Virus record (IMG/VR): IMGVR_UViG_3300046007_013046
Coordinates: 1 to 35,508 of that record
Direction: 5' to 3' (one strand)
Origin: a virus
Length of the DNA: 35,508 nt
In this document: piece after piece, positions 6,694 to 30,689 of the stretch
How positions within the stretch are numbered: the first letter of the stretch is position 1
Layout of the letters: each line of letters starts with the position of its first letter
Translations under genes and position numbers: made by a program
Notes under the pieces: generated by a model
The model's input: only the letters and a program-made list of their open reading frames with translations
The model's database searches: none
Told to the model about the DNA's origin: nothing

Positions 6694-8600
<1,907 letters not shown>

Positions 8601-27550: not shown

Positions 27551-27580
27551 TTTGGCTTCCTGAAATTTCTTTCGTATATT
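27551..27580 (+). promoter_or_regulatory. promoter of the SWIM/HNH operon
   Basis: TTTGG (27551-27555), 18 bases, GTATATT (27574-27580), 21 bases before ATG 27602. From 27571 to the start codon the sequence is identical to 30299-30332. Confidence 0.75.
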
Positions 27581-28410: not shown

Positions 28411-28634
28411 TGGCAAGAAGTAAAGCATATGGGGATCAACCAGTAGTAGTTGTCTTCAAAACATCAAATCGTTCAAACGCTCAAACCAAAATGAAAGTGT
28501 TCAACAATCGTAATATCGATGAGATAATCGATGTTAAAGTTAAACTACCAGGTATCCCCGAAACAGCAGTGTGGCTTGAGGTAGGAATTGGAGAGAGTTT
28601 TATCACCAAATTTGGCAATAAGTACAAAATTTAA
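28410..28634 (+). CDS. hypothetical small protein
   Basis: 74 residues, mostly predicted strands with one helix region NRNIDEIIDVKVKLPGIPETAVWLEVGIG. Not recognised. The start overlaps the last base of the HNH stop. Its 3' end carries the box of the next promoter. Confidence 0.62.
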   Translation: MARSKAYGDQPVVVVFKTSNRSNAQTKMKVFNNRNIDEIIDVKVKLPGIPETAVWLEVGIGESFITKFGNKYKI

Positions 28635-28640
28635 TATATT
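28606..28640 (+). promoter_or_regulatory. promoter with palindromic box
   Basis: TTTGG (28611-28615), 18 bases, ATATATT (28634-28640), 26 bases before ATG 28667. The box is the right half of the palindrome CCAAATTTGG (28606-28615), inside the end of the upstream gene. Confidence 0.6.
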
Positions 28641-28666
28641 TATCACATATAATTAAACTATAAAAA

Positions 28667-29350
28667 ATGGCAACACGTGCTTTAATTGGATACATGGAAA
28701 ATGGAGTTTTAACTTCAACCTATAACCATTACGATGGCTACCCTGAAAATTTAGGTAAAGCTTTAAATACATTCTATAATACACCTGAAAAAGCAAAAGA
28801 AATTGCTAACAAAGGTTATATTAGCTATGTTGATCCCGAAACAGGTGAAATCGAAGCTAAAAACCAAGACACTCCAGATAAATTAGATTTAAACAAATTA
28901 GATCCAGAACAAGCAACTTTAGAAGTAGCAGATTTGGTAGATTCATATGGTGCTGATTATGCTTATTTCTATAGTGCAGATGCTGGTTCATGGGATAATA
29001 TCAAAAACTATGGTAAGAGACAAATGTCGGATGCTTTAGAAGGTATTTTATTCCAAGGCAGTGAAAAAATGGATGAATCTATTGATGAAGCTAAAGACGT
29101 TAAAGGTCATGTAATGATGTTACTTGATAAAGTAGAATCAAAACTTAAACCTGAAGAAAAAGATATGTTTAGTACATATCAAGAATCCGTAATGCGTGAT
29201 GTTAAAGCAGGTGGTTCACGTTTAACTCAATACGAAGATTTTACATCTGAAGATATGGTTGAAGATTATAAAAACTATATTGCTGATAAAATGGATATTG
29301 ATGAAGCATTTGTGCGTCAGATGCAATATAAAGCAGGTATTATTAAATAA
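28667..29350 (+). CDS. hypothetical phage protein (MATRALIGY type)
   Basis: 227 residues. The N-terminus ATRALIGYMENGVLTSTYNH, then YDGYPENLGKALNTFYNT is a pattern I recall from other phage and some bacterial proteins of unknown function. A later acidic helical part (DESIDEAKDVKGHVMMLLDKV...) follows YGADYAYFYSADAGSWDN. No known catalytic site. It stands behind its own promoter, so it may be a single unit with the next gene. Confidence 0.72.
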   Translation: MATRALIGYMENGVLTSTYNHYDGYPENLGKALNTFYNTPEKAKEIANKGYISYVDPETGEIEAKNQDTPDKLDLNKLDPEQATLEVADLVDSYGADYAYFYSADAGSWDNIKNYGKRQMSDALEGILFQGSEKMDESIDEAKDVKGHVMMLLDKVESKLKPEEKDMFSTYQESVMRDVKAGGSRLTQYEDFTSEDMVEDYKNYIADKMDIDEAFVRQMQYKAGIIK

Positions 29351-29372: not shown

Positions 29373-30086
29373 ATGAAAAAAGCAGATAACTTTGACGCTA
29401 GTAAGTGGTTAGTAGAAAACAAAATCACTTTTCAATCTCGTTTAAATGAAGAAGAAGAATATTCAAGCGAGAGAATAAATCAACGTGATGTAGAAATAGC
29501 AGGTGGGGAGGTTATTAATCATACCTTTGATACTATTGATATGATTGATCTAGGTAATGGATATAAAGTAAAAGTCCTTTCTACATACTATTTTAGAGAT
29601 CCAGGAGTAAAAGGATACAGTGATTCTACTAGTGAAGAAAATCCTATGATAAGTGGAGTTAAAACCACATTAATGGACCCATCAGGTAAACCTATTAAAA
29701 ATCACAATTTTACAGGTTCAGGTCAATGGTGGATGCTTACCTCAGGAAAAAAATATTTTATGCCCCGAATCAAAGCATGGTGGGAAGAAAAAATGGGTAA
29801 ACTAGGTTTAGAAGAATCTAACTTAAACGAAAATTCAGATTTAGCATCTAAAATAGCAGCATTACCTGATTTCAACACAGCAATGAATCGTGAAAAATCT
29901 GAATTAGTAGTCGGTAAATATGTTGTTGTTCGCTATGATGACAGAGAATATGAAGATGGTCAAGACATGTATGTAGTATGGGACAATACTAGAGACCAAG
30001 ATGAAATTGGTTCATACGATGATGTTCCTGAATTTGAATCAATATATCCAAACGAAGTAGCTAATTGGTTGAAACAAAACGCATAA
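29373..30086 (+). CDS. hypothetical protein with N-terminal WLVENKITFQSRL segment
   Basis: 237 residues, two parts. The start FDASKWLVENKITFQSRLNE resembles a short N-terminal motif (F-x-x-x-x-(F/W)LxENK(I/L)TxxSRL) that I recall from other Bacteroidota and aquatic phage proteins. Residues about 30-140 look beta-rich with GQWWMLTSGKKYFMPRIKAWW. Residues 165-237 form a second region with ELVVGKYVVVRYDD. LNE occurs at 24-26 and 151-153, a form of the T4 prohead protease site (L/I-x-E). A structural role is possible but unproven. Confidence 0.65.
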   Translation: MKKADNFDASKWLVENKITFQSRLNEEEEYSSERINQRDVEIAGGEVINHTFDTIDMIDLGNGYKVKVLSTYYFRDPGVKGYSDSTSEENPMISGVKTTLMDPSGKPIKNHNFTGSGQWWMLTSGKKYFMPRIKAWWEEKMGKLGLEESNLNENSDLASKIAALPDFNTAMNREKSELVVGKYVVVRYDDREYEDGQDMYVVWDNTRDQDEIGSYDDVPEFESIYPNEVANWLKQNA

Positions 30087-30137
30087 TTTAGAATCATTCT
30101 AAATGACGAAGGGGGTTGGAAATCAACCCCCTTTTTT
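30086..30137 (+). terminator. tandem hairpins ending in a strong intrinsic terminator
   Basis: First hairpin ATTTAGAA-TCA-TTCTAAAT (30086-30104), 8-bp stem. Second GGGGGTTG-GAAAT-CAACCCCC (30111-30131), 8-bp stem with five G:C pairs at its base, followed by six T (30132-30137). It follows the stop of the 237-residue protein and is the best terminator in the window. Its left arm and loop border contain the GTTGG box of the next promoter. Confidence 0.88.
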
Positions 30138-30144
30138 GTATATT
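30115..30144 (+). promoter_or_regulatory. promoter embedded in terminator
   Basis: GTTGG (30115-30119), 18 bases, GTATATT (30138-30144) then TAC. The following ATG is only 6 bases after the element, so the RNA would be leaderless or nearly so. Confidence 0.6.
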
Positions 30145-30150
30145 TACCAC

Positions 30151-30291
30151 ATGATGAAAGAAGAGCATAAAATAAATGGTTTAGATGTTCGTCACGTAGC
30201 TCAAATCGTGCGACGTAAAATGATTACTCGTACTAAACCTAGTAAAAAAGTTTATTCTCGAAAAAATCTTAAAAAAGATTTGGAATCCTGA
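30151..30291 (+). CDS. tiny basic protein, possibly from a leaderless mRNA
   Basis: 46 residues from ATG 30151 (ATGATG; 30154 also possible). An upstream in-frame start at 30103 would run through the terminator and promoter and is rejected. It is basic: VRHVAQIVRRKMITRTKPSKK, then RKNLKKDL. Not recognised; perhaps a nucleic-acid-binding protein. Confidence 0.5.
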   Translation: MMKEEHKINGLDVRHVAQIVRRKMITRTKPSKKVYSRKNLKKDLES

Positions 30292-30308
30292 GGAATTGTT
30301 CGTATATT
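30279..30308 (+). promoter_or_regulatory. promoter, duplicate of 27571-27604 leader
   Basis: TTTGG (30279-30283), 18 bases, GTATATT (30302-30308), 21 bases before ATG 30330. The 34 bases 30299-30332 repeat 27571-27604 exactly. A 7-bp hairpin AAATCTT-AAAA-AAGATTT (30264-30281) touches the box. Confidence 0.75.
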
Positions 30309-30329
30309 CACGACATAGAAATAAAGGTT

Positions 30330-30689
30330 ATGAAAAGATTTGAAATAGAAAAACAAGAGTTATTTATTGCGTTAGCAAGTATTTTGAATACTAAAGGTGC
30401 TGACATTGAGATGGAAAGTAGTTGGGATAGTATCAACAAAACAATTGAATATATTAATGTTCCTGTAATTCGTGGGTACATGGGTCCTGAAGGTGAGGGA
30501 TTTTATTTTAGAGCTCGCCGTGATTATTTTGGTTTAAGTGCTGATAAGTTATTTAATAGTTTTCCAATCAATATTGATGGTTATAAGTTTGAAGCAGTAA
30601 GTTTTAGTGATTATGAAGTTGATGATGATCGTACTTGGTCTGAAAGTATTAGTTTTATTGTTACTAAAGATGGCAAAAACGTCATCTAA
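30330..30689 (+). CDS. hypothetical protein
   Basis: 119 residues, not recognised. An N-terminal helix (EKQELFIALASILNTKG) is followed by strands (INVPVIRGYMG, GFYFRARRDYFG, YKFEAVSFSDYEV, ISFIVTKDG). The start follows AAAGGTT after its own promoter; another promoter starts just after the stop, so it is probably transcribed alone or as a first gene. Confidence 0.68.
   Translation: MKRFEIEKQELFIALASILNTKGADIEMESSWDSINKTIEYINVPVIRGYMGPEGEGFYFRARRDYFGLSADKLFNSFPINIDGYKFEAVSFSDYEVDDDRTWSESISFIVTKDGKNVI

Follow-up and report, generated by a model that had tools for sequence, protein, structure and literature searches.

The region between a 237-aa gene and a small 46-aa gene raises the question of whether the same bases can end one transcript and start the next. 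The window, by which we mean the whole stretch of DNA analyzed, is a virus record of 35.5 kb (35,508 nucleotides) with a GC content of 32% that encodes a T4-like family B DNA polymerase. We found no direct DNA match to annotated phages, and most of the sequences that we compared were metagenomic contigs. Judging from the promoter type described below, the phage's host is probably a member of the Bacteroidota. The window also encodes a full-length GroEL-like chaperonin of 537 aa (6987-8600).

Anatomy of the hairpin-promoter element

A first-pass annotation of this DNA had proposed a strong hairpin followed by six T, and this proved correct to the base, with the hairpin core GGGGGTTGGAAATCAACCCCC at 30111-30131 leading directly into TTTTTT at 30132-30137 (Table 1). 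The GC-rich hairpin and its immediate T tract lie 22 nt past the stop codon at 30086, as in an intrinsic terminator, and the fold energy of -18.6 kcal/mol (z -3.9) was equalled by none of 200 shuffles; the A-U pairs of such hairpin stems run into the T tract. The GTTGG box that had been placed in the hairpin arm was found at 30115-30119, where TTG belongs to the 5' arm and the final G to the loop, and TTGG (30116-30119) is separated from TATATTTA by 19 bp. The six bases noted between the -7 element and the ATG are likewise present (TATATT at 30139-30144, then TACCAC, then the ATG at 30151). In Flavobacterium johnsoniae, the -7 box runs from T-12 to G-5, leaving 4-5 nt to the start (PMC6847099), and this spacing rule puts the predicted +1 at 30151, the A of the ATG, in agreement with the earlier proposal that the RNA would begin at or beside the start codon.

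Table 1. Positions of the predicted features in the window
Feature	Position	Strand	Evidence or remark
Promoter of the upstream unit (genes 28667-29350 and 29373-30086), TTGG-N19-TATATTTA	28612..28642	+	motif match
Upstream gene, 237 aa, final gene of the unit predicted to be terminated by the hairpin	29373..30086	+	ORF; tblastn relatives
Perfect palindrome TTTAGAAT-C-ATTCTAAA	30087..30103	+	distance to the -33 box kept at exactly 12 bp in relatives
Predicted terminator hairpin (core 30111-30131)	30108..30134	+	-18.6 kcal/mol; covaries in relatives
-33 box TTGG, in hairpin 5' arm and loop	30116..30119	+	GTGG in several relatives, TGG invariant
T tract of the terminator, also promoter-proximal part of the spacer	30132..30137	+	
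-7 box TATATTTA	30139..30146	+	7/8 match to the F. johnsoniae consensus TAHHTTTG (PMC6847099); last base A, not G
Predicted transcription start, A of the first ATG	30151..30151	+	PMC6847099 spacing rule; ATG at the same offset in 9/9 aligned sequences
Predicted leaderless gene, 46-aa basic protein MMKEEHKINGLDVRHVAQIVRRKMITRTKPSKKVYSRKNLKKDLES	30151..30291	+	viral family without known domain
Next promoter, TTGG-N19-TATATTCA, without terminator	30280..30310	+	overlaps the 3' end of the 46-aa gene

Judged by its sequence statistics, TTGG-N19-TATATT is the promoter of this phage group. A 19-bp spacing between TTGG and TATATTYA was counted 78 times in related contigs, and no other spacing more than twice; the TTTG-like -33 element is present as TTGG at this fixed spacing. 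The pattern was abundant in one main orientation across 19 related records, while a reversed control gave 0-1 matches per strand; within the window, the same motif occurs at 27552, 28612, 30280, and 30695, with a similar CAT near +1. The pattern with a canonical TTTG end had no match in the window record, and a generic sigma-70 scan of the window was uninformative here. Relative to the sigma-ABfr-type promoter of Bacteroidota (-33 TTTG, -7 TAnnTTTG), the phage promoter is alike in its TTGG and TATATTTA elements and in a start ~12 nt downstream of the T that opens the -7 box, but its -33 TTGG is sharp, its spacing is fixed at 19, and its -7 box ends in A instead of G; the -33 element is hardly visible in F. 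johnsoniae (PMC6847099), and the spacer is variable in length in Bacteroides thetaiotaomicron (PMC7366714). At many of these promoters, the leader ends in AAAGGTTATG directly before the gene (for example, window 30315-30332), a possible phage translation-start motif.

We consider it highly probable, on the sequence evidence, that 30108-30151 is an intrinsic terminator fused to a promoter, from which a new RNA would start at or next to the ATG at 30151 and be translated without a leader into the 46-aa protein. In this mechanism, RNA polymerase arriving from the 28612 promoter would make the hairpin and U tract and release its transcript at ~30133-30138. The same DNA would then act as a promoter in which TTGG, at -35 to -32, belongs to the hairpin's 5' arm and loop, most of the 19-bp spacer consists of the 3' arm and T tract, and TATATTTA serves as the -7 element, and leaderless translation of an RNA beginning at or beside the ATG would yield the 46-aa product. 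The geometry works because a TTGG...CCAA-ended stem plus six T just fills the gap between the two promoter boxes. Since the hairpin lies upstream of the predicted +1, it would be contained in the upstream transcript only; it should end the 28612 unit. The simplest benefit of the fusion would be compactness and insulation between transcription units. The fused element with a near-leaderless start, as first annotated, is the best reading of the locus given that its geometry is kept in aligned relatives, that its stems covary, and that it recurs at unrelated genes and in other phages. Anatomy, fixed spacing, conservation, covariation, and recurrence can be read directly from the sequences, whereas termination, initiation, leaderless translation, and the advantage of a compact boundary are inferred from them.

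Conservation and recurrence of the element

Nine sequences, including the window, aligned without gaps across the hairpin, T tract, and -7 box. Across these nine, bases in the two arms of the helix (columns 45-56 with 62-73) were paired in 91.7% of cases, both partners had changed in six pairs, and the covariation score was matched by 0 of 500 shuffles, which ignore phylogeny. Within the stems of the wider promoter set, G-U mismatches outnumbered A-C mismatches by 27 to 5, an excess that favours pairing in RNA and to which base composition near the T tract may contribute. Both the covariation and the preference for G-U over A-C thus point to pairing at the RNA level.

These data bear on the possibility that the dyad around TTGG is a DNA operator for a repressor or activator acting on the -33 box, with the RNA hairpin being incidental. 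A dyad covering the -33 box would be a classic repression site, and a second conserved palindrome lies just upstream at a fixed spacing, so regulators probably do bind in this region. However, the stem sequence drifts freely among relatives while pairing is kept, unlike a protein site; the T tract is found on one side only; the G-U to A-C ratio runs against a DNA dyad; and fused elements within one phage differ in their stem sequences. We therefore regard an operator at the hairpin itself as improbable. The upstream palindrome is a probable regulator-binding site. Its consensus is TTTRGAAT-N-ATTCYAAA followed by TGA, and the palindrome-TGA, 12 bp before a -33 box, was also found in front of other genes, at L302 7896 (with a fused terminator) and at L131 10794 (without a terminator). 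The distance is the same at sites that have a terminator and at sites that lack one, which suggests that the palindrome is recognized as DNA, probably by an activator or some other regulator, and it is a probable operator of a small phage regulon.

The overlap of predicted terminator and promoter was not confined to this locus. When 151 non-redundant promoters were chosen by TTGG-N19-TATATT alone and a strong hairpin was defined as an MFE of <= -12 kcal/mol within the 40 nt preceding the -7 box, 24 promoters overlapped a strong hairpin, compared with a mean of 1.6 and a maximum of 3 in shuffles. Conversely, 636 kb of related phage DNA contained 17 strong terminators, and at 8 of these no more than 13 nt separated the stem from a -7 box, compared with 0/18 and 1/10 on two Bacteroidota chromosomes (1/28 over 720 kb; p = 8e-4). 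Fusion as a general feature of Bacteroidota chromosomes was thus not supported at the phage frequency, with a single case in 28 terminators, although a genome scan detected a modest excess at promoter spacing (35/120).

We also scanned a viral collection with a pattern consisting of TTGG, a loop, CCAA, a gap, TTTT, and TATATT, in which the gaps were variable, using GGTT/AACC in place of TTGG/CCAA as a control. Among the matches listed, 84 of 117 TTGG/CCAA hairpins stood at exactly 29 nt, the promoter spacing, compared with 9 of 105 for the control, and the stem extended by at least two pairs past the pattern in 57/84 of the matches listed at 29 nt but in only 5/33 of those at other distances. 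By these counts, the hairpin-promoter layout is far too frequent for chance.

Many other phages also carry fused elements, and these occur in front of unrelated genes. At L043 and L002, the upstream gene is different, yet the element still accompanies the downstream gene; at L048 and L052, the same kind of element, with an ATGATG start, precedes an unrelated 45-aa frame. A large gene (867-914 aa, with a MYQ... start) is also fused, with its start at +1 to +3 (L031 5306, L296 1443, and L019 4613). In a variant layout, the hairpin lies almost wholly between the -33 and -7 boxes (TTGGAGCCCCGAAAGGGGCTTCGTATATT), with a short T stretch after it (L045 7948, L047 8378, L048 5641, and L310 11540).

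The start of the 46-aa gene

Viral contigs yielded at least 140 relatives of the 46-aa protein, 80 of which were kept. The family has the motif NGLxxRHVAQIxRRxMIxxxxPSKKxYxRK (window 30151-30291; L447-L526), and its members show 56-100% identity, with invariant residues in A2 and A3. The protein had no homologue in annotated phages and no match in Pfam, PHROGs, or NCBIfam, and no solved structure was found for it; its AlphaFold model was modest (pLDDT 71), with a single helix at residues 13-27. The reading frame from the ATG at 30151 is under protein-level selection, and protein-level conservation is absent upstream of this ATG.

We surveyed the gene at 44 non-redundant loci, 26 of which carry the TTGG-N19 promoter type. 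The promoter was fused to a hairpin at 20/26 of these loci and the ATG fell at +1 to +4 at 19/26, with both properties present at 16/26, and fusion and start were kept despite different upstream genes. In all nine aligned sequences, the start codon coincides with the predicted +1. A sister group (L481, L483, L491, and L498) retains the fused terminator and has a leader of 14-15 nt, indicating that fusion and the leaderless start are separable; consistent with this, a link between the two was rejected in the wider promoter set (Fisher p = 0.32). The leader lengths at 245 promoters showed one peak at exactly 0, few values of 3-9 nt, and the main mode at 11-22 nt, although some of the 28 zero-length leaders are chance ATGs inside longer leaders.

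The ORF finder sets the gene start at 30103, upstream of the terminator, giving 62 codons, and none of the nine aligned sequences interrupts this frame within the element. The locus could accordingly be read as a terminator only, with the gene reached by read-through or from another promoter and translated from 30103 into a 62-aa protein. The promoter spacing here is nevertheless the standard of the group, and the 16 residues that the longer frame adds show poor conservation next to the 46-aa part; moreover, L467, L474, L492, and others outside the palindrome clade lack an upstream in-frame start and still have the ATG at +1. Since the added stretch shows no conservation as protein and does not exist in homologues outside the palindrome clade, the 62-aa form is unlikely, and we give very little weight to a terminator-only locus.

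Conversely, the element could be a promoter only, with the upstream mRNA ended by Rho-dependent or processed termination and its 3' end then mainly stabilized by the hairpin. Protection of 3' ends by hairpins does occur, and intrinsic signals may be ignored by a polymerase that is modified late in infection, but a strong GC stem with an immediate T6 is the standard form of an intrinsic terminator, and this alternative is hardly likely. The T tract bears on it further. Promoters without a hairpin carry T at spacer positions -4 and -3 in 79% of cases, so the tract is partly an ordinary spacer preference of the promoter, a point against terminator-promoter fusion. Counting back from the end of the spacer, however, the fifth position is T at a frequency of 0.75 in promoters with a hairpin, up from 0.35, which argues against a promoter whose hairpin has no part in termination.

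Relation of the proposed fused element to known systems

Each component by itself is already known: the terminator, this type of promoter, and the leaderless gene. Like an intrinsic terminator, the phage element has a GC-rich hairpin and a T tract just past the upstream stop codon, but its arm, loop, and T tract double as promoter parts of the next gene. A comparable overlap occurs at the E. coli frd terminator, the ampC attenuator, where the terminator that ends one operon extends into the regulatory region of the gene that follows. There, ampC is transcribed from a promoter located upstream, in frdD, and it is the ampC RNA on which the terminator acts, whereas in the phage the -33 box is within the hairpin and the hairpin precedes +1.

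Leaderless starts are a normal minority class in Bacteroidota, with 5.5% of the mRNAs being leaderless in F. psychrophilum (PMC9723704) and 3.7% of the 5' UTRs being shorter than 10 nt in B. thetaiotaomicron (PMC7366714). The phage gene resembles these in having its ATG at the predicted first transcript base, and differs in that this position is kept across a divergent viral family and is combined with a terminator. We found no systematic terminator-promoter fusion in phages in the titles and abstracts of the open-licence papers searched, and on that basis it appears to be unreported.

E. coli polymerase remains bound to DNA after termination and is able to restart at promoters close by, with an efficiency expected to depend on the distance between terminator and promoter (PMC6978322, PMC6978380). 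This was shown with the E. coli enzyme on separate terminators and promoters, whereas in the phage the distance would be zero. By analogy, a polymerase terminating in the T tract would cover the -33 to -7 region, and sigma could rebind and restart it in place. We regard such a re-initiation station as doubtful, and interference between termination and initiation is equally possible. If in-place restart were true, downstream output would be coupled to flux through the upstream unit despite the separate transcripts, and the fused element offers a natural zero-distance test bed for whether polymerases restart in place after termination.

With about half of the strong terminators in this phage group doubling as promoters, sharing of bases would be a standard design, and the element could serve as a natural 45-bp boundary part. 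It also calls for caution in annotation, where it is usual to call terminators and promoters separately; here, the ORF caller set the gene start upstream of the terminator.

The 237-aa gene upstream of the element has a further feature. Its first ~26 residues (MKKADNFDASKWLVENKITFQSRL; window 29373-29450) recur in many contigs (about 25-35 loci), apparently without the remainder of the protein, and to judge by this pattern they may be like a shared targeting tag, for example for the capsid.
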